Below are positions 22,186 through 51,925 of a DNA stretch of 64,000 nt, one piece after another. The first letter of the stretch is position 1. Each line of letters starts with the position of its first letter. The stretch covers positions 248,001-312,000 of the forward strand of contig NZ_MTQP01000065.1 of the NCBI RefSeq assembly GCF_001984175.1, given 5' to 3'. Made by a program: the position numbers and the translations under genes. A model generated the notes under the pieces. The model was not told the DNA's origin and did no database searches. It saw only the letters and a list, made by a program, of their open reading frames with translations. This DNA comes from Saccharothrix sp. ALI-22-I. GTDB taxonomy: Bacteria > Actinomycetota > Actinomycetes > Mycobacteriales > Pseudonocardiaceae.

Positions 22186-22450
22186 AGTCGAACACTCAGA
22201 TCGCGAGAGTCGAACCTTCAGGACCCTCGAGTTCAACGTTCAGGACGCACTCGACCCGTCCTGAACGTTGAACTCAGCCGACCTGGGCGTTCGACTCTCG
22301 CGCGTGTCCAACGTTCAGAACGCGCGTGTCCAACGTTGGGAACGCGCGTGTCCAACGTTGGGAACGCGCGTGTCCTACGTTCAGGACAGGCGAGTTGAAC
22401 GTTCAGAACGCGTGAGGCACCTGCTCGGGAAGTTGTCCACAGGCGACGCT
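22186..22450. repeat. Palindromic/tandem repeat array 1 (family also at 51660-51925)
   Basis: The stretch is built of reiterated pieces. A 14-bp outer inverted repeat (22202-22215 / 22289-22302, core GAGAGTCGAAC) encloses an 18-bp perfect inverted repeat, GAGTTCAACGTTCAGGAC at 22229-22246 and its complement at 22258-22275. Four 22-bp tandem units with core GTGTCCAACGTT follow, at about 22301-22388, in the order TTCAGAAC, TTGGGAAC, TTGGGAAC, then a degenerate unit. A last piece (GAGTTGAACGTTCAGAACGC) precedes the terminators. It sits between convergent gdh and amylase. Confidence 0.8.
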
Positions 22451-29012: not shown

Positions 29013-32000
29013 TTGGAGTTCAGGGTGTTGGGGCCGGTGGAGGCCCGCGTCGAGGGCAGAACGGTGTCGGTCGGGGGGCCGAAGCCGAAGACGTTGCTGG
29101 CGTTGCTGGCGATCCACGCGGGCCGCGTCGTGTCGCTGGAGCAGTTGATCGACGCCGTGTGGGGCGAGCAACCGCCCGACCAGTCGCGCTCGTCCATCTA
29201 CACCTACGTGTCGTCGCTGCGCCGCGCGCTGGGTGACGTGCTGGCCCGCTCCGGCGGCGGGTACGTGCTGGCGGCCGAGCTGGACCAGGTGGACCTGCAC
29301 GTGTTCACCGCCGAGGTGGGCGAGGGCCGCCGCGCGTTGGCCGAAGGCGATCTGGAGGAGGCCGCCGCTCGCTTCGCCGCCGCCTCGGACGCGTGGCGCG
29401 GCGCCCCGTTGGGCGGTGCGCAGGGCGCGTGGGCCGAAGGTGAGCGCTCCCGGCTCGAAGAGTTGCGCCTCGGCGCGCTGGAGGACCGCTTCGACGCCGA
29501 CCTGGCCATCGGTCGCGGCGAGTTGTTGATCTCCGAGCTGAGTGCGGCCGTGGCGGACAACCCGTTGCGCGAACGGCTGCGCAGCCAGCTCATGCTCGCC
29601 CTGCACCAGGCGGGTAGGCAGGCCGACGCGTTGGCGTGCTACCAGGAGGGCAGACGGGTTCTGCTCGACGAGTTGGGCCTGGAACCCGGCCCGGCGCTGC
29701 GGTCCACGCACGACCGCGTCCTGCGCGGCGAGCCGGAGGCGCCCGCCGCCGAGACGCCCGGGTCCACACAGACACCGAGCCAGCTGCCCTTCGACATCGC
29801 CGACTTCACCGGCCGGGTGGACGAGCAGGAACGCCTGGTCGCCCGCCTCACCACCGCCACCGGCGCGGTGCGGGTGTGCGCGATCTCCGGTCAGCCGGGC
29901 GCGGGCAAGTCGACGCTGGCGGCGCACGTCGCGCACGTCGTCCGCGAGCACTTCACCGACGGCCAGCTGTACGCGAACCTGCGCGGCGTCCAGGCCGTGC
30001 CCGCCGACACGGCCGAGGTGCTGGCGGGTTTCCTGCGCGCCCTGGGCGTGGCGGACACCGGGATCCCGGCCGAACTGGACGAGCGGGCCCAGCTCTACCG
30101 CACCCTGGTGGCCGACCGCCGGGTGCTGATCGTGCTGGACGACGCCCACGACGAACGCCAGATCCGATCGCTCCTGCCCGGCGGGGCGACCTGTGCGGTG
30201 CTGGTGACCAGCCGGGAGCGGCTGGGCGCCTTGAGCGGCGCGGCCCAGCTGCACCTGCGCGTCCTGAACGACGAGGAAGCGGTGGAGCTGCTCGACCGCG
30301 TGGTGGGCGACGACCGGGTGTCCGCCGAACCGGAGACCGCCCAGGAGATCGTCCGGTTGTGCGGTCACCTGCCGCTGGCGCTGCGGATCGCCGGCGCCCG
30401 CCTGGCCGCCCGCCCGCGGTGGCGGCTGGCCCGCCTCGCCGAACGCCTCGGTGTGCAGCGCCGGGTGTTGCAGGAGCTGACGCTGGGCGACCTCGAAGTG
30501 CGCGGCAGCCTCGCCCTGAGCTACGACGGCCTGGCCGAGCGCGAGCGCACCGCGCTGCGACGGCTGGGTCTGCTCGACGTCTCCACGTTCGGTGGTTGGC
30601 TGATCGCGCCCCTGCTCGACTGCTCCGCGCAGGAGGCCGAGGAGGTGGTGGAACGCCTCGTCGACTCGCAGCTGCTCGACGTGGCCGCCACCGATGACGC
30701 CGCCGCCCTGCGCTACCGGATGCACGACCTGACCAGGGTGTTCGCTCGGGAACGCGGTGAGGCCGAGGAGCCGGCGGCCGAGGTGAACGCGGCCTGCACC
30801 CGTGCCGCCGCGTCCTGGCTGTCCCTGGTGGAGTTGGCGGGCAGCCACATGCCGCACGCCACGTTCGACGGCACCCCGGTCGCGCTGGACCCGCGGTACT
30901 TCGACCGCGGGGCGGCGGACGAGATCGTCGCCGACCCGGAGGCGTGGTTCGACGCCGAGCAGTCGGGCCTGGTGAGCGTGGTGGAGCGGATCAGCGAGCT
31001 GGACCTGGCCGACGTCGCCACCCGGCTCGCCGCCGTGCTGTGCTCGTCGCGGTTCTCCGTGCGCAACCTGTTCGGCCAGTGGTGGCGGACGCACTCGGCG
31101 GCGCTGGCGGCGGCTCGGCGTGCGGGGGACCGGGCGGGCGAGGCCCGGCTGCTCTCCGGCCTGGGGTGGTTGCGCTACGAGCAGGACCGCTTCGACGAGG
31201 CCGCGTCGTACTACGAGCAGGCCTTGGCGGCGTACCGGGAGGGTGGCGACGCCCGGGGTGAGGCCTCGACCCGCTTGGCCCTGAGCACCGTCCTGCGTGA
31301 GCACGGCGAACTCGTCAAAGCCCGGGAACTGCTCGACCTGGCGCTGCCGGTGCTGCGCGAGTTGGACGAGAAGCACCTGGTGGCACAGGCACTGCACGGC
31401 TTGGGACGGGTGCTGACCGAGCAGGGCGAACTGGCGGAGGCCCTGGCGGCGTGCGAGCGGACGTTGGGCGCCTACCAGGCGGTCGGCGACCGGCGCGGTG
31501 AGGCGATCGCCCTGCGCTCGGTCGGCATCGTCCACCGGGCTGCCGAACGCTGGGACGAGGCCGCCGACTTCTCCGCTCGTGCGGTGCGGGTCCTGCGCGC
31601 CCTCGGTGATCGCCTGATGTCCGCCTACGCCACGCAGGCGCTGGCCAAGGTCCGCATCCGGCAGGGCCGGGGCGACGCGGTGCGCAGCGAACTGCTCGAA
31701 TGCCTGAGCACGTGCAACGAGATGCAGGACGGCTTCGGCCAGGCGCTGGTGCTGCGCACCCTCGGCGAGTTGGAGCTGACCGCCGGCCGCCCGGACGTGG
31801 CCCGCCGCTACCTCGAACGCTCCCTGCACTGGTGGGAGGCGTTGGCACTGCCGGTGTGGCGGGCCCGGACGCTGCGGGACCTGGCCACCACCTTCGCCGC
31901 GCTCGGCGAGCCGGACGCCGCGGAGGCGTCCTGGCAGGAGGCTCTGGTGATCTTCCGCGCCCACGGCAGCCGTGAGGCCGTCGAGCCGCGTCGGGACACG

Positions 32001-32033
32001 CGTGGCGTGCCGCACGCGGACGCCATCGCCTGA
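29013..32033 (+). CDS. AfsR/SARP-type regulator with NB-ARC ATPase and TPR domains
   Basis: 1006 residues from a TTG start giving the canonical MEFRVLGPVEARVEGR terminus. Residues 1-100 form the OmpR-like DNA-binding domain (LEQLIDAVWGEQPPDQSRSS). Residues 105-245 are the BTAD domain (ALACYQEGRRVLLDELGLEP). An NB-ARC ATPase follows with Walker A SGQPGAGKSTLA (about 290) and LIVLDDAHDE. From about 640 to 1000 there are tetratricopeptide repeats (GLGWLRYEQDRFDEAASYYE, and others). AfsR-type proteins activate secondary-metabolite or developmental genes. Here the first genes downstream are secreted peptidoglycan hydrolases, separated by a strong terminator. They are possible targets, but this is not shown. 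Confidence 0.92.
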   Translation: MEFRVLGPVEARVEGRTVSVGGPKPKTLLALLAIHAGRVVSLEQLIDAVWGEQPPDQSRSSIYTYVSSLRRALGDVLARSGGGYVLAAELDQVDLHVFTAEVGEGRRALAEGDLEEAAARFAAASDAWRGAPLGGAQGAWAEGERSRLEELRLGALEDRFDADLAIGRGELLISELSAAVADNPLRERLRSQLMLALHQAGRQADALACYQEGRRVLLDELGLEPGPALRSTHDRVLRGEPEAPAAETPGSTQTPSQLPFDIADFTGRVDEQERLVARLTTATGAVRVCAISGQPGAGKSTLAAHVAHVVREHFTDGQLYANLRGVQAVPADTAEVLAGFLRALGVADTGIPAELDERAQLYRTLVADRRVLIVLDDAHDERQIRSLLPGGATCAVLVTSRERLGALSGAAQLHLRVLNDEEAVELLDRVVGDDRVSAEPETAQEIVRLCGHLPLALRIAGARLAARPRWRLARLAERLGVQRRVLQELTLGDLEVRGSLALSYDGLAERERTALRRLGLLDVSTFGGWLIAPLLDCSAQEAEEVVERLVDSQLLDVAATDDAAALRYRMHDLTRVFARERGEAEEPAAEVNAACTRAAASWLSLVELAGSHMPHATFDGTPVALDPRYFDRGAADEIVADPEAWFDAEQSGLVSVVERISELDLADVATRLAAVLCSSRFSVRNLFGQWWRTHSAALAAARRAGDRAGEARLLSGLGWLRYEQDRFDEAASYYEQALAAYREGGDARGEASTRLALSTVLREHGELVKARELLDLALPVLRELDEKHLVAQALHGLGRVLTEQGELAEALAACERTLGAYQAVGDRRGEAIALRSVGIVHRAAERWDEAADFSARAVRVLRALGDRLMSAYATQALAKVRIRQGRGDAVRSELLECLSTCNEMQDGFGQALVLRTLGELELTAGRPDVARRYLERSLHWWEALALPVWRARTLRDLATTFAALGEPDAAEASWQEALVIFRAHGSREAVEPRRDTRGVPHADAIA

Positions 32034-32044
32034 TCAGCTCTTCG

Positions 32045-32079
32045 AAAAGGGCCGGGGACACGACGTCCCCGGCCCTTTT
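32045..32079 (+). terminator. Strong terminator after the AfsR-like gene
   Basis: A 15-bp perfect stem (AAAAGGGCCGGGGAC and its complement) with a five-base loop, the distal arm ending in TTTT. It can work in both directions. Confidence 0.9.
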
Positions 32080-32190
32080 CCGTGCTCCCGCACCGGCCTG
32101 AAGAACACCTCAAAGCCCGCTTTGAGGTTTCTCCGAGGTCTCGGCGACAGGGTTGTCCCAACACCGGGTCAGCAACCCCAAGGAGCCGAA

Positions 32191-33657
32191 GTGAAGGTCC
32201 TCACCAGCAAGTACGCCACCAGGGCGGTCACCACCTCCGTAGTGGCGGGTCTCCTCACCGCCGGTCTCACGGCCGGTCTCGCGAACCAGGCGAGCGCCGC
32301 CGAGCTTCCCGCCGGCGGGAGCCGCGTCGCCGTCCTGGACGCCAGCGGCAACCTGCACGTCAAGGCGGGCACGCTCGGGGCGGACTGGGAGATGAACGTC
32401 GCGACCGGCGTCGGCAAGGTCGAGGTAGCCGGTGATCGGATAGGCGTGCTGGGTGCCGACGGCGTGCTGTGGGTGAAGGAGGGCGGCCTCAAGGCGAGCT
32501 GGGACAACCAGGGCGGCGGCGTCAAGGACTTCCGCCTCGCCGGCAACCGCATCGGCATCGTCCGGACCGACGGCACCGCGGCCGTGAAGGACGGCGGCCT
32601 CGACGCGGGCTGGGCGGAGCAGACCTACGACGTGCGGGAGCTGGAGCTCACGCCGACCCGGATCGGTGTCCTCGGCAACGACGGCTCGGTCAGCGTCAAG
32701 GAGGGCCTCCTCAACGCCGGTTGGGTGCCTCAGGGCTCCGGCGTGCGGGACCTGGAGCTGTCAGGCGACCGGATCGGGATCCTGCGCACCGACGGCACGG
32801 CCGCGGTGAAGGAGTCGAACCTCTGGGGCGACTGGGTCGAGCAGACCGGCGGGGTCACCGACCTGGAGCTGTCCGGCAGCCGCGTCGGCGTCGTGCTCAC
32901 CAACGGCCTGGCCACGGTCAAGGAAGGCAACCTCCACGCGGACTGGGTGCCCCAGGTCGGTGAGGTGCGGGACATCGAGATCTCCGGTGACCGCATCGGC
33001 GTCGTGCTCACCAACGGCACGGCCACGGTCAAGGAGGGCACCCTCTGGGCCGACTGGGTCCCGCAGACCGGCGGCGTCCAGCAGTTGCGCCTCGCCACCG
33101 CCGGGCCCGGCTCCACCAGCGGCCACGTCACGATCAACGACATCACCGCGATCTACGGGTCCGTGTACGCCACGGACACCGTCGCCGCGGGACTGCCGAG
33201 CCTGAACCAGGTGATGGCCGAGAAGGGCATCACCACCCCCACCCGCAAGGCCGCGTTCGTGGCCACGCTCAAGCACGAGAGCGGCTTCCGCTACAACGCC
33301 GGCGAGGCGGGCAGCACCCACAAGTACCGCGGTCGCGGCTTCATCCAGTTGACCGCTGACTACAACTACCAGGCCGCGGGCACCAGCCTCGGCCACGACT
33401 TCCTGAACAACCCGTCCGACGCCGCGTCGCTCGCGTGGAGCGCCAAGATCGCCGGCTGGTACTGGACCGTCGCCCGCAACATCAACGCCTCCGCCGACGC
33501 CTACGACATGGGCGGCGTCGGTCGGGCCATCGGCTACTCGCCCGCGCTCGACCCGACCGAGTCGAACAGCCGCTGCACCTCGTACAAGCGCGCGCTCGCC
33601 CACTTCAACGGCGGCAGCCTGCCCGTCGCCGAGAGCTCCATCAAGTGCAACCGCTGA
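32191..33657 (+). CDS. Secreted seven-repeat propeller protein with C-terminal GH19-like lysozyme domain
   Basis: 488 residues. The Sec signal peptide ends in ANQASA (cleavage after about residue 36). Residues 43-300 hold seven repeats of about 37 residues following the pattern G-x-R-I-G-V-L-x-x-D-G-T-x-x-V-K-E-G-x-L-x-x-x-W. This is consistent with a seven-bladed beta-propeller, probably a sugar-binding module. Residues 310-488 resemble GH19-type chitinase/endolysin domains (TLKHESGFRYN with a likely catalytic Glu, then YRGRGFIQLTADYNYQAAG). It should cut peptidoglycan or chitin outside the cell. GTG start with AGGAG five bases upstream. The next gene, 55 bases on, carries the same propeller. 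Confidence 0.85.
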   Translation: MKVLTSKYATRAVTTSVVAGLLTAGLTAGLANQASAAELPAGGSRVAVLDASGNLHVKAGTLGADWEMNVATGVGKVEVAGDRIGVLGADGVLWVKEGGLKASWDNQGGGVKDFRLAGNRIGIVRTDGTAAVKDGGLDAGWAEQTYDVRELELTPTRIGVLGNDGSVSVKEGLLNAGWVPQGSGVRDLELSGDRIGILRTDGTAAVKESNLWGDWVEQTGGVTDLELSGSRVGVVLTNGLATVKEGNLHADWVPQVGEVRDIEISGDRIGVVLTNGTATVKEGTLWADWVPQTGGVQQLRLATAGPGSTSGHVTINDITAIYGSVYATDTVAAGLPSLNQVMAEKGITTPTRKAAFVATLKHESGFRYNAGEAGSTHKYRGRGFIQLTADYNYQAAGTSLGHDFLNNPSDAASLAWSAKIAGWYWTVARNINASADAYDMGGVGRAIGYSPALDPTESNSRCTSYKRALAHFNGGSLPVAESSIKCNR

Positions 33658-41054: not shown

Positions 41055-41720
41055 GTGCCAGACCGACAACCCACCCCGATCGGCGCCCTGGTGAAGACCG
41101 GGATCGCGTCGTCGGTCCCGTCCGGCCAAAAACAGCTCTCGGTGAACACCGTGCACGCTGTGGTCGACGGGGAGGGAGCCGGTCAGGCGCCCGTGGTGCT
41201 GCCTTGGGGAAGACGCAAGGTCCTGCTGCTCAACGCCACCTTCGAACCGCTCACCGCGCTGCCGTTGCGGCGCGCGGTGGTCCTCGTGGTGTGCGGGAAG
41301 GCCGAGGTGGTGCACGGCGACCCCGCCGGGGCTGTCGTCCACTCCTCGACGTCCGAGGTCGTCGTGCCGTCGGTCATCCGGCTGGCGAACTACGTGCGGG
41401 TGCCCTACCGCGGTCGGGTCCCGCTGACCCGCGCCGGGTTGATGCACCGCGACCGGTACCGCTGCGCGTACTGCGGCGGGCGCGCCGAGACGATCGACCA
41501 CGTCGTACCGCGCAGCCGGGGCGGGCCCCACTCGTGGACGAACTGCGTGGCCTGTTGCGCGAAGTGCAACCACCGCAAGGCCGACAAGCTCCTGTCGGAG
41601 CTGGGTTGGCGCCTGCGCGTGGTGCCGAACGCCCCCCGCGGGCCGCATTGGCGGCTGCTGGCCGGCGTCACCGAAGCCGACCCGCTGTGGCTGCCCTACC
41701 TGGGCGAACCCGCGGCCTAG
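41055..41720 (+). CDS. HNH endonuclease
   Basis: 221 residues. The C-terminal HNH domain has RDRYRCAYCGGRAETIDHVV (zinc CxxC plus the catalytic His pair), then RSRGGPHSWTNCVACCAKCN, with the second CxxC and an Asn/His-type metal site ending HRKADKLL. The N-terminal half (KVLLLNATFEPLTALPLRRA) is the conserved actinobacterial extension. These proteins are widespread single-copy nucleases whose role is unsettled. The GTG start follows GGAGG by seven bases. A TGCTAGA extended -10 lies about 30 bases before the ribosome site. Confidence 0.88.
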   Translation: MPDRQPTPIGALVKTGIASSVPSGQKQLSVNTVHAVVDGEGAGQAPVVLPWGRRKVLLLNATFEPLTALPLRRAVVLVVCGKAEVVHGDPAGAVVHSSTSEVVVPSVIRLANYVRVPYRGRVPLTRAGLMHRDRYRCAYCGGRAETIDHVVPRSRGGPHSWTNCVACCAKCNHRKADKLLSELGWRLRVVPNAPRGPHWRLLAGVTEADPLWLPYLGEPAA

Positions 41721-41735: not shown

Positions 41736-42158
41736 TCACGCCGCCAGGGCGAGGTCCTCGCGGCGCGCCGTGATGCGCACCGAGTCCGACGCCGTGATCC
41801 GCACCGAGTCGCACGCGGTGATCCGCACGGAGTCCGACGCCGTGATCCGGACCGAGTCCGACGCGGTGATCCGCACGGAGTCGCACGCTGTGATGCGGAC
41901 CGAGTCCGACGCGGTGATGCGCACCGAGTCGCACGCGGTGATGCGGACTGAGTCGGAGGCCGTGATGCGGACCGAGTCGTCCGTCGCCGCCGTAATCCGG
42001 ACGGAGTCTTCAGAGGTAATCCGGACGGAGTCCTGCGCGGTGATGCGCACAGACTCGTCGAGCGCGGTCGAAGGCCGAACAGTGGTAACGCTCTGCTCCG
42101 ATTGGGTGTACGACGAACGAGTGAGAGCGGCGACCAGGGCAGGGTTCACGGTGTACAT
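41736..42158 (-). CDS. Octapeptide-repeat protein (DSVRITA-S/C), function unknown
   Basis: 140 residues. A 33-residue leader (MYTVNPALVAALTRSSYTQS, and so on) precedes twelve near-perfect repeats of DSVRITA-x. In repeats 4-11 the eighth residue alternates Ser and Cys (S, C, S, C, S, S, C, S). The end is RREDLALAA. The ATG has GGAGGACACGAC directly upstream. Variable bases in the 24-bp units fall at third codon positions and are synonymous in this frame except at the Ser/Cys site. In the opposite frame the same changes would swap Ile and Met. It has no homologue I know. Options are a multi-core modified-peptide precursor or a self-assembling beta protein. No modifying enzyme is adjacent. Confidence 0.7.
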   Translation of the reverse strand: MYTVNPALVAALTRSSYTQSEQSVTTVRPSTALDESVRITAQDSVRITSEDSVRITAATDDSVRITASDSVRITACDSVRITASDSVRITACDSVRITASDSVRITASDSVRITACDSVRITASDSVRITARREDLALAA

Positions 42159-42194
42159 GTCGTGTCCTCCGAGACTCATCGGGCGGGAATTAGT

Positions 42195-42208
42195 ATCCGG
42201 AATCGGAT
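42195..42208. promoter_or_regulatory. Inverted repeat at the promoter of the octapeptide-repeat gene
   Basis: ATCCG-GAAT-CGGAT lies immediately upstream of a TACTAAT -10-like element read on the minus strand, about 40 bases before the start codon. It could be an operator of the repeat gene. Confidence 0.4.
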
Positions 42209-42642
42209 GCGCAAGACCCGTACAGGTGAAAAGCTAGAAGCCGAGTGGGTTCAGGACAAGACGCCAAACCGGCCGCCATTCGCCTCCGTCCGGGGGAAGC
42301 CCTTCCGGGTGTACGGACTGCGACGATCGAGCGCCCGGACTAGTGCATCCGGCATCGATGGACACCCAGGGTGACGTCGTCCCAGGTAGGGGGTATGCGA
42401 GATCACACCGGCCCCCCTGCCACGCACCCAGGCCCATTCGGGTGCCGGCGCGGGGTTGCGGTCGACGCCGGCATCCCACCACGTGGTCACCGCCGAACAC
42501 GGTGATCGCGACCCCTACGGCACGGCCCGCGTTCACAGATAGAGCGCCCGTCGGACGGCAACGCGCACCGCGCCCGACCCCGCCGGCGCCGAAACGGGTG
42601 CCCTCGCCGACGTGACCAGGCCGATCGGTTACCGTAGCCGCC
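42209..42642. other. Gene-poor intergenic region
   Basis: This 434-base stretch separates the repeat-protein gene from the small membrane protein. A 79-codon minus-strand frame (42251-42490) exists but has weak codon bias and no ribosome site. A TACCGT -10-like hexamer at 42630 precedes the next gene by seven bases. Confidence 0.4.
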
Positions 42643-42888
42643 GTGACCATCGTGGAGACCGTGCTCGTCTTCGCGCTGATCCCGCTGGCCATCTACGGCG
42701 TGATCACGCTACTGACGCTGAGGCCGAAGGCCACCCGCATTCAGCGGTACCGGCCGGGCCAGGAGTGGAACTACGCCCCCGTCTGGTGGACCGCCAACCC
42801 CGCGGGCTTGCCCGGCGGCGCGCACCAGACCGCCGTGACGCCGGCCGAGGGCCGTACCGCCAAGGGAGGTGCCCGTGGCAACTGGTGA
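42643..42888 (+). CDS. Small conserved membrane protein preceding DUF5130
   Basis: 81 residues. One transmembrane helix (VETVLVFALIPLAIYGVITL, residues 4-23) is followed by a cytoplasmic tail rich in Tyr/Trp/Pro (YRPGQEWNYAPVWWTANPAG). It is a recurrent actinobacterial partner of the DUF5130 gene that overlaps its end by 14 bases. The GTG start is probably leaderless, because TACCGT lies seven bases upstream. Function unknown. Confidence 0.75.
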   Translation: MTIVETVLVFALIPLAIYGVITLLTLRPKATRIQRYRPGQEWNYAPVWWTANPAGLPGGAHQTAVTPAEGRTAKGGARGNW

Positions 42889-43408: not shown

Positions 43409-43573
43409 CTACCGGGTCTTGATCGCCTGGACGAACGCTCTCAGCCGACTCGGGCTGACATCTACGACCACCCCAGGGTTCTTCGAGTCCCGCACCGCAC
43501 CGAGGTGGTTGCCCACCTCGACGCAGTTGGTGGCGGCACCGCTCCTGCTGGACTTCTTCCACCGCACCGTCAT
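43409..43573 (-). CDS. DUF397 protein, partner of the XRE regulator
   Basis: 54 residues with the whole DUF397 signature: WKKSSRSGAATNCVEVG, then AVRDSKNPGVVVDVSPSRLR and AFVQAIK. The ATG overlaps the stop of the upstream XRE gene (ATGA). XRE-DUF397 pairs are abundant in actinomycetes. The small partner modulates the DNA-binding protein in ways that resemble, but do not equal, toxin-antitoxin control, and some pairs govern development or antibiotic production. Confidence 0.9.
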   Translation of the reverse strand: MTVRWKKSSRSGAATNCVEVGNHLGAVRDSKNPGVVVDVSPSRLRAFVQAIKTR

Positions 43574-44412
43574 GTAACTCCCGCAATCCGTTCGGCTTCG
43601 CGGGCGATCAGCTCGGCGGACTGCTCCGAACTCATCGCGATGTCCAGCAACTCTGGCACGCACGACTGGAACCCGGCTACCGCGTCCGGCTCCTGTACGA
43701 ACACCGCGCTGGTCGGGTACTCCAAGTGCACGAACGAGGTGCCCTCGCAGTTCAACAGCAGGAACGGGCAGGAGAGACCCGAGTGCCAGCCGGTGGCGGT
43801 CGGGACCACTCGGATGTCGACGTTGGGCCGTGCCGCCATCACCATGAGGTGTTCGAGCTGCTCGACCATCACCTCCGGCCCGCCGATCTTCTGGTCGAAC
43901 ACGCTCTGGCCGACCAGGGCGGTGAAGCGGACCGCGTTGCGGCGGGTGAGGATGTCGCGTCGCCCCATCCGCACGGCGATGCGTGTGGCGATCTCTTCGT
44001 CCGGGATGCGGCTGGCTTCCATGATCGCGAGCGTGTACGAGCTGACTTGGAGCAGTCCGGGGATCACGAGAGGCGACCAGTCCACCACCTCCTTGGCCAT
44101 CTGCTCGACTTCGAGCAGCGCGGCGAGCTGCGCCCGCTGCTCCGGTACCTCGATCACCTGGAGCTGCGAACCGCTGGTGTCCTCGGCCATTTCCAGGATC
44201 TCTTGGCGTTCACTTTCGGTGACTTCGAGGGGGTCGAGGATGCGGATGACCTCGGCCCGTGTCGGCACTCGTTGTCCGCTTTCGTTGCGCGAAAGCAACG
44301 AATGTACGATGCCAATCTTCTTCCCAAGTGCACGTTGACTGAGATTGTTCGCCTCTCGGGCGTTGCGCAAGCGCGCGCCCAAGGCGATGGCCTTCGAGGT
44401 ATTGCGGTTCAT
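43570..44412 (-). CDS. XRE-family regulator with DUF5753 sensor domain
   Basis: 280 residues. The helix-turn-helix is LRNAREANNLSQRALGKKIG, then HSLLSRNESGQRVP (about residues 15-50). The DUF5753 domain (about 100-275) has WSPLVIPGLLQVSSYTLAIM, RQDILTRR-like MGRRDILTRR, VVPTATGWHSGLSCPFLLLN and SFVHLEYPTSAVFV. Translation is coupled to the DUF397 gene. ATG 44412 is preceded by AGGA; an in-frame ATG nine bases upstream is possible. It is divergent from a second XRE gene at 44615. Confidence 0.9.
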   Translation of the reverse strand: MNRNTSKAIALGARLRNAREANNLSQRALGKKIGIVHSLLSRNESGQRVPTRAEVIRILDPLEVTESERQEILEMAEDTSGSQLQVIEVPEQRAQLAALLEVEQMAKEVVDWSPLVIPGLLQVSSYTLAIMEASRIPDEEIATRIAVRMGRRDILTRRNAVRFTALVGQSVFDQKIGGPEVMVEQLEHLMVMAARPNVDIRVVPTATGWHSGLSCPFLLLNCEGTSFVHLEYPTSAVFVQEPDAVAGFQSCVPELLDIAMSSEQSAELIAREAERIAGVT

Positions 44413-44541
44413 GAAATGCATCCTAAAGCGGGACCAGTGGTCAAGTCCCTCGCTCGAAAAGGGGATTGACCGACTGTTCGTCGCCGGACAGGCTGTTGCG
44501 CACCAAGGCTGACGACCGGCCCGCACGCTGGTCGAACATGC

Positions 44542-44592
44542 GCGGCGGGTGGTGGAGCGCGCGAAATCTGCGCAGCGCCCACCACCCGCCGC
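44542..44592. promoter_or_regulatory. Long inverted repeat between divergent XRE genes
   Basis: GCGGCGGGTGGTGG at 44542-44555 and its perfect complement at 44579-44592 are separated by 23 bases. The element lies 22 bases before the start of the plus-strand XRE gene. It could be an operator for one of the XRE proteins or a leader hairpin. Confidence 0.5.
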
Positions 44593-44614
44593 GTCCTGCT
44601 TGACAAGGGGAATC

Positions 44615-45466
44615 ATGGAGTCCGAAGAAAGGCCGCCTGCCCGGCTGAGCACTGCCCGCAGCCGGGAATTGGGGGAGGAATTGCGCCGGGTCCGGCACCG
44701 GGCCCGGATGTCGTCGGGTTTCGTCGCCGAAGCCCTGGGCTGGTCGTTGGGGAAGCTGTCGAAACTCGAAACCGGCAGTCGCGGCACGAGCGCGTGGGAA
44801 ATCGGCACGCTGCTCGGCCGGTGCGGCGCGGACAAACCCACCCGAGACCGCATCCTGGCCATCGCCAGTGAAGCCGACACCGGCAGTTTCCTGCGCCTGC
44901 ACGACCCGTCGTCGGACACCCTCACGGCCCTGTCCGTGCACGAGCACGCGGCCCGCACCGTCACCACCTACGAGCCGTTGACGATCCCGAGCCTGGCGCA
45001 GACCGAGGACTACGCCTACGCGCTGACCAAGAACCGTGCCGTCGCCCAGGCCCGCATGACCCGCCAGGACCTGCTGCGCAGGCCAGGCGGCCCGGAGACC
45101 GTCCTCTACATCCACGAGGCCGCGTTGCGGATGGTCGTCGGCGACCCGAAGGTCATGCGCGACCAACTACTACGCCTGACGCTGATGTGCGGGTGGACCC
45201 GAATCAGCCCCCGCATCATCCCGATGAGCGCACCGTCACACATCGCCCTGCGCCACCCCGCAACCCTGCTGACCTTCGCCGCCCCCACCAAGCCACTCGC
45301 CTACACCGAAACCGACACCGCCACCGTCTTCCACGACGACCCGAACGCCGTCACCGCGTACCAGACCAAGATGCGCCACCTGGCCCGCCTGGTCCTGACC
45401 CCCGCCCAATCCCGAGACCAATTCGCCCGCTGGGCCGACGCCTACGACCGCGAAGGCCGCCAGTAG
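44615..45466 (+). CDS. Second XRE-family regulator with DUF5753 domain
   Basis: 283 residues. The helix-turn-helix is LGEELRRVRHRARMSSGFVA, then LGWSLGKLSKLETGSRGTS (about residues 18-57). The DUF5753 domain follows with YEPLTIPSLAQTEDYAYALT, ARMTRQDLLRRPGGPETVLY and FAAPTKPLAYTETDTATVFH. There is no DUF397 gene next to it. It is divergent from the XRE/DUF397 pair and shares a 202-base promoter region with a long inverted repeat. The 3' end meets the convergent receiver-domain gene after one base. Confidence 0.88.
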   Translation: MESEERPPARLSTARSRELGEELRRVRHRARMSSGFVAEALGWSLGKLSKLETGSRGTSAWEIGTLLGRCGADKPTRDRILAIASEADTGSFLRLHDPSSDTLTALSVHEHAARTVTTYEPLTIPSLAQTEDYAYALTKNRAVAQARMTRQDLLRRPGGPETVLYIHEAALRMVVGDPKVMRDQLLRLTLMCGWTRISPRIIPMSAPSHIALRHPATLLTFAAPTKPLAYTETDTATVFHDDPNAVTAYQTKMRHLARLVLTPAQSRDQFARWADAYDREGRQ

Positions 45467-51674: not shown

Positions 51675-51925
51675 CGCGCGTGTCCAACGTTCAGAACGTG
51701 CGTGTCCAACGTTGGGAACGTGCGTGTCCAACGTTGGGAACGTGCGTGTCCAACGCTCAGAACCCCCGAATTCAACGCTCAGGTTTGCTCGGACGTCGCC
51801 GAGTGCGGCGTGCGTGTGTTCTGAGCGTTCAACTCGCCTGTTCTGAACGTTGGACACGCGCGACCTGAACGTTGGACACGCGCGGTCTGGAGGTTCGACT
51901 CTCGGGGTCTGAGGGTTCGACTCTC
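51675..51925. repeat. Palindromic/tandem repeat array 2
   Basis: Four 22-bp tandem units (about 51677-51763, core GTGTCCAACGTT) occur in the same order as in array 1: TTCAGAAC, TTGGGAAC, TTGGGAAC, degenerate CTCAGAAC. Two inverted copies follow at 51840-51880. The first unit (51675-51697) and 51840-51862 form a perfect 23-bp inverted repeat that encloses the rest. Inner pairs such as 51752-51763 (AACGCTCAGAAC) and its complement at 51819-51830 add more stems. Two GGTTCGACTCTCG pieces end the array. It lies between convergent aldehyde dehydrogenase and ComB-family genes. Confidence 0.8.

Follow-up and report, generated by a model that had tools for sequence, protein, structure and literature searches.

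The window, that is, the whole 64,000-nucleotide stretch of DNA that was analysed, carries on its minus strand a small gene whose product, here called REP, is built around an array of short units. The gene lies between an HNH endonuclease gene and the gene for CtaJ, both of which serve as landmarks, and it is equipped with promoter-like boxes, a ribosome-binding site and a distinctive C-terminal tail. The features are the following.
41055-41720 (+): HNH endonuclease gene, the convergent constant neighbour of REP; a landmark, not a proposed partner
41736-42158 (−): REP repeat protein gene, 140 aa; ATG at 42158, stop at 41738-41736
41739-41765 (−): C-terminal tail RREDLALAA, similar in its ending to AESNDRAAYALAA, the tag encoded by the host tmRNA
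41766-42056 (−): twelve SVRIT units, residues 35-131, nine of them in one strict period-8 run
42057-42158 (−): leader, residues 1-34 (MYTVNP...LTRSSYTQS...)
42166-42170 (−): GGAGG ribosome-binding site of REP, by direct reading
42211-42231 (−): conserved start-region element TTTCACCTGTACGGGTCTTGC, one copy in the genome
42231-42236 (−): −10-like box TAGCTT
42254-42259 (−): −35-like box TTGTCC
42643-42888 (+): CtaJ, aa3 oxidase subunit; divergent neighbour of REP and a landmark

The genes around REP encode HNH, CtaJ, DUF5130, a prolyl oligopeptidase, MscS, a globin and regulators. At 43409-45466, two regulator genes of the HTH_31/DUF5753 type diverge from each other next to a DUF397 protein, a combination that is common in actinobacteria. 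Elsewhere in the window, arrays of a 22-bp unit built around GTGTCCAACGTTCAGAA lie at 22304-22386, 51680-51762 and 51841-51879, on the plus strand in two places and on the minus strand in the third; the sequence has 10 matches at up to 2 mismatches, against a mean of 0.00 in 100 shuffles. A 561-aa ORF at 31972-33657 (+) has a signal-like start and several 37-residue repeats (a 111-bp tandem array), and its C-terminal part presumably resembles a family-19 chitinase.

The twelve units of REP are preceded by D in eleven cases and by E in one, and followed by A in eleven and by S in one; the repeat protein described in the earlier note is thus confirmed. Ten of the unit spacings are 8 and one is 10; for the tandem array, period 24 gives a score of 260 and period 72 one of 307. 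The residues between units run Q, E, A, S, C, S, C, S, S, C, S, R, with a longer third linker. The alternation of Ser and Cys that had been reported holds in part of the array centre but not elsewhere in it, and the protein has three Cys in total and no Pro within the repeats. The leader comprises 34 residues rather than 33. An ATG further upstream, at 42179, is an unlikely start, as the GGAGG site falls between that codon and 42158.

The REP gene is under peptide-level selection. When the SVRIT units of the window gene are compared in pairs, third codon positions differ in 54% and first plus second positions in 0%, in agreement with the synonymous third-base changes noted previously. Over 80 distinct genes, the window's included and those with fewer than five fitting units skipped, mismatches to the consensus unit of the same gene number 370 at first, 308 at second and 2481 at third codon positions. 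Both codon families are used for two of the residues in the units, CGN and AGG for Arg and TCN and AGY for Ser. Because third positions drift freely, the peptide is what is selected, and this drift, seen across the family and inside the window gene, strongly supports the selection on the peptide that the earlier note had proposed. Third positions also differ by 24-58% among units within one gene (15 genes examined), so that the arrays cannot owe their uniformity to recent DNA homogenisation alone. An ORF on the opposite strand, 41770-42237 (+), was rejected as a shadow from the codon-position drift in the REP frame.

REP occupies a fixed chromosomal slot. A first genome scan returned 34 loci, of which 33 are relatives, on contigs titled Saccharothrix, Lentzea, Umezawaea and Actinosynnema and in one strain labelled Nocardia; Saccharothrix is placed in the Pseudonocardiaceae. 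A Scalindua match of that scan (L034) proved to be a phage-spike-like protein and was dropped, as was L036, which holds no repeat ORF. With the window protein as query, matches were found in 99 of 297 family genomes at E 1e-3, and a hexapeptide profile matched 119 of the 297 at E 1e-5. The union of protein and hexapeptide-profile searches gives at least 203 of 297 genomes, a count of search matches of which some were read in the slot; nine further genomes, four slot-read (one with a decayed copy) and five found by profile A1, would give 212. In the window's genus, 24 of the 25 listed genomes have REP, its own included, and the 25th (G195) has a decayed copy. Homologues that keep the frame and vary in repeat number, whose absence the earlier note would have taken as refutation, are thus present in related genomes. 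The HNH gene adjoins REP on the opposite strand in all 104 repeat-bearing loci fetched, which represent 80 distinct proteins, with the window's gene counted twice and some species in both searches. CtaJ was reached in 86 of these 104, many loci being too short to extend to it. Thirty family genomes, 25 without a match and five with a weak match to the window protein, were read at the HNH gene: 24 have a repeat gene there, mostly with another unit, and one has a decayed copy (L148). The other five have no repeat gene; in three of them CtaJ directly follows HNH, and the other two have no CtaJ in reach. REP is therefore dispensable in some lineages.

In the genomes sampled, the syntenic family is confined to the Pseudonocardiaceae. 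Outside the family, profile A1 matched four of 397 genomes in the order and a further one of 394 in the class. These five loci (L141-L145; E 6e-7 to 6e-8) have short arrays of 3-8 look-alike units, such as ESTRVSAT, GSGLRLTA, GVRVSRRA, GTRFVARD and GVRLAGQS, none has HNH or CtaJ beside the array, and we judge them to be chance or convergent likenesses. At L143, in another family of the same order, a 1036-aa minus-strand ORF with GEGESSGR repeats overlaps eight GVRVS octapeptides in another frame, an array that we judge to resemble the REP unit by chance or as a shadow. Beside the best HNH match in 24 genomes of 21 genera no repeats were found (at most two units in any frame), although distant matches of this kind may not be orthologs. 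A mobile or phage origin was rejected after inspection of two of the plasmid matches and one of the phage matches. The former comprise 12 records, nine from Aeromonas and three from Bacillus; of the two inspected, the Bacillus match is a charged repeat protein of the EAEEQAQR type and the Aeromonas match lies antisense to a VWA gene. There were two phage matches, one to Porphyromonas at E 1e-3 and the other to an octapeptide protein judged convergent.

The unit type differs by genus, and SVRIT, GVRIS, GTRVT, GTRIT, GVRIE, GVRIH, GIRVT and GVRVT are all in use. In 105 distinct proteins we counted 832 VRIT, 596 VRIS, 277 TRVT, 45 TRIT, 22 VRIH, 19 VRIE, 15 IRVT and 14 VRVT units, plus a few others. 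G or S precedes the unit in nearly every case, and the positions that follow are V/T/I, R, I/V and T/S/H/E. Arg is retained in 1826 of 1836 cases whose other four positions fit, and in 102 of the 105 proteins a single type makes up 90% or more of the units. Spacing is looser: 8 in 827 of 1729 unit-to-unit steps, 9 in 451 and 6 in 262, with mixed spacings inside 89 of the 105 proteins. Copy number ranges from about 6 to 49 units (L155 reaches a contig edge) and net charge from −11 to +60, a span that argues against simple polyanion binding. None of the 105 proteins has a strongly hydrophobic segment (19-residue Kyte-Doolittle means peak at 1.16 over the set and at 0.49 in the window protein), and for this reason we favour a soluble REP. 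Cys is absent from 46 of the 105 proteins and occurs once in 37. The metal- or redox-linked Cys face suggested earlier is therefore unsupported and cannot be what the family does in general; conserved, regularly spaced Cys were not found, and Cys chemistry was rejected. The leader is partly conserved in relatives, and the cores are kept better. A weak motif, T[RL][SPRL], recurs across genera near residues 10-24, in 26 of 44 N-termini that share less than 70% identity across 20 residues; shuffled sequences show it in 8% of cases, a figure that is not a probability as the rows are related.

The promoter and start region of REP are deeply conserved; the ribosome-binding site is conserved as well, and the tail in part. 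An element like TTTCACCTGTACGGGTCTTGC anchors 94 of 95 distinct upstream regions, and in 93 of the 94, TTG and TAnnnT boxes (permissive patterns) stand 17 bp apart just before it. TTCAC and GG served as the upstream anchors, so their 100% is by construction, whereas CTTGC (91-100%) was unanchored. L175, a REP gene of the IRVT type, lacks the element. At 0-1 mismatch, every one of 24 same-genus genomes, the window's own included, has a single TTTCACCTGTACGGGTCTTGC site, and at up to 1 mismatch the element is absent from all other genomes among 197 of the class. At 2 mismatches, a second site appears in one same-genus genome, and one genome of another family also has a site. That the element reaches past the −10 box suggests a candidate operator, or else constraint on the first transcribed nucleotides.

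The tail deserves separate consideration. The host tmRNA tag ends YALAA and the window protein ends ALAA, which provides the LAA-like C-terminal feature of ssrA-like (C-motif 1) Clp substrates. Among 76 distinct REP C-termini, 39 end in LAA or LAG, 32 fit [YFLHV][ASTVQ]LA[AG] and 48 end in AA, against 0, 0 and 10 of 285 control ORFs; the control ORFs were picked by a crude filter rather than from annotation, and tails of related REPs do not count as separate events. Differing junctions converge on like ends (SVRITALAA, GVRISALAA, GTRVTLAA, RSEYALAA, SDFSLAA), which suggests that the end itself is kept. The feature is not universal, LAA being absent in part of the family, and 12 of the 105 proteins stop exactly at VRIS without such a tail. 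In Streptomyces, alanines at the C-terminus target ClgR, PopR, Lon and sigma-AntA to ClpP (PMC9775585), and in M. tuberculosis LacZ was less abundant when tagged with LAA (PMC3613350). By analogy, tail-bearing REP would be turned over by Clp. The LAA-type end is common to REP and these encoded substrates, although the latter are regulators or proteases and REP is a repeat array.

What structure might such an array adopt? AF2, run on the monomer, placed a strand on each unit of the window protein, with a mean pLDDT of 70.3 for the best model and 54.7, 54.0, 45.2 and 44.5 for the others; for a GVRIS relative the units were again strands, at a mean pLDDT of 59.0 and with most of the first 96 residues below 50. 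Structure prediction, proposed in the earlier note as a check, thus yielded strands on the units but modest confidence and one such model in five. AF2 is known to invent confident β-solenoids on repeat sequences (PMC11795689). Stacked β-strands are our best structural guess, drawn mostly from the beta-branched pattern. Foldseek against the PDB gave no match to the REP model better than E 0.19. A viral gp5-like protein overlays it (TM 0.71 by query length, probability 1.00, E 0.054, rank 7th of 382); the viral match with the best E (0.0048) reaches a TM of just 0.16. Sequence searches drift weakly toward VgrG and gp5 β-helices, and Pfam DUF2345 (PF10106) scores 36.9 bits against a cut-off of 30.7, the best stretch covering 42 of 151 profile positions, with scores that repeats inflate. 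In a relative, L091 5188-6564 gives spurious-looking Pfam matches to DNA_pol3_beta (5e-17) and Sarcoglycan_1 (6e-11), a warning for automatic annotation. Since similar repeats also match DNA_pol3_beta at 5e-17, we do not file REP under DUF2345.

The closest structural parallels are the triple-stranded β-helix of T4 gp5C with 8 residues per repeat, gp12 with about 6 per turn, and VgrG/DUF2345; REP would share with them one strand per 6-8-residue repeat. The gp5 octad, with G at a, N/D at b, V at g and a polar or charged residue at h (PMC3004832), is compatible with the REP pattern [A/G]-polar-x-[G/S]-V-R-I-[S/T]. REP differs in having a 34-aa leader only, without OB-fold or lysozyme, in lying among scanned neighbours that include no phage or T6SS genes, and in its mixed spacings, strict Arg, own promoter and degron-like tail. 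The family as a whole lacks the regular 8-residue period of the gp5/VgrG type, and the window array is nearly regular (10 of 11 spacings). REP also matches phrog_15773 in PHROGs (E 8.7e-8; BLASTP 39% over 100 columns). To this group belongs gp32 of Gordonia phage BillDoor (L205 1390-1893), with the octapeptide repeats DSARVWAY and GSTRIEAL. Units such as DSVRVSAY and GSTRIEAL resemble the 8-residue form of REP, but the eighth residue is mostly aromatic, the unit is looser and the N-terminus is unlike that of REP. Convergence is probably likelier than descent, because REP of other genera uses hexapeptides.

Based on these observations, we propose, tentatively and as the best explanation, that REP is a cytoplasmic, self-assembling β-repeat protein that is kept short-lived by Clp proteolysis in tail-bearing lineages; β stacking, assembly, Clp turnover and any cellular role are what we infer. 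Each unit, [GS]-beta-Arg-beta-[TSEH], would be a single short strand that turns its two beta-branched residues to one side and Arg, together with small or polar residues, to the opposite side. Linkers of mostly 1-5 residues, free to drift, would connect the units, which would stack as identical rungs into a rod, needle or fibril-like scaffold. The rungs would have to match one another, while copy number and linker charge would be free to vary, and the proposed need for all rungs to be alike would explain why the whole array switches type together between genera. Supply of the protein would be set by the deeply conserved promoter, and in the many lineages that have the ssrA-like LAA tail, Clp protease would clear unassembled chains. 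That 89 of 105 proteins mix spacings is awkward for assembly in a strict helix.

The main rival, which is possible though the less probable reading, interprets REP as a flexible array of short linear motifs, in which each [GS]-beta-Arg-beta-[TS] docks one copy of a partner and the protein gathers or titrates many. The near-invariant Arg in every unit, the variable linker length and copy number, and a five-residue core without a confident fold all speak for docking. However, residue class changes array-wide (T/S to E or H, V to T or I) in a beta-compatible manner that a fixed pocket would not obviously tolerate, and none of the constant neighbours is an obvious candidate for the partner. A bolder version of self-assembly, which we consider unlikely, is a switch between assembly and destruction. 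The tail would act as an encoded mimic of the rescue tag, and Clp would remove REP chains below the concentration at which identical Arg-centred strands stack, so that polymer would mark saturated Clp or stalling translation; each genus would own a private strand code (VRIT, VRIS, TRVT, VRIE, VRIH) that prevents cross-assembly. It is rather more doubtful that REP is mainly a Clp substrate, a decoy or load sensor competing with ssrA-tagged proteins and accumulating only if Clp or trans-translation is saturated: the ssrA-like tails (32 of 76 against none of the controls) and the YALAA end of the host's own tag fit this idea, but several lineages have no tail and the strict repeat unit is left unexplained.

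A multi-core precursor of a modified or cleaved peptide, with maturation enzymes elsewhere, is very improbable. Such RiPP precursors include repeat-bearing graspetides, and REP shares with them a short leader and repeated units, here mostly 6-10 residues apart, in which Ser, Thr, Asp and Cys are present. In REP, by contrast, the core is invariant and better conserved than the variable leader, Cys is sporadic, and the gene sits in the same housekeeping slot in every genus read. As the earlier note had remarked, no modifying enzyme is adjacent: the nine flanking proteins scanned in the window include no maturation enzyme and other genera, compared by synteny, have the same housekeeping flanks, which tells against the precursor that the note had entertained. 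The prolyl oligopeptidase next to REP is not constant across loci, and the window repeats have no Pro. That the repeats act as DNA or RNA, or that the opposite strand is the true gene, is hardly credible: there is a 24-bp tandem array and the ORF is open on both strands, but third positions drift in the REP frame, promoter, ribosome-binding site and ATG are conserved on the REP strand, and 78 5' leaders have no conserved RNA fold (alifold −0.5), for which reason structure in the 5' leader was rejected.

What are the implications of REP for the family? The Pseudonocardiaceae, which are rich in antibiotic producers, keep at a constant chromosomal position a protein that is not described by any model of Pfam or NCBIfam, the matches obtained being partial or spurious-looking. 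No description of the family was found in the open-licence PMC literature, where none of the papers among the matches listed contains VRITA or GVRIS, and ordinary homology searches miss REP because the unit changes by genus. We rate REP as new as a protein family, while the kinds of mechanism proposed have known analogues. The LAA tail makes the link between REP and Clp directly testable. If REP docks a partner, the array would be a pointer to a new hub; if it assembles, it would represent a genetically encoded, very short and tunable strand code with natural variants.
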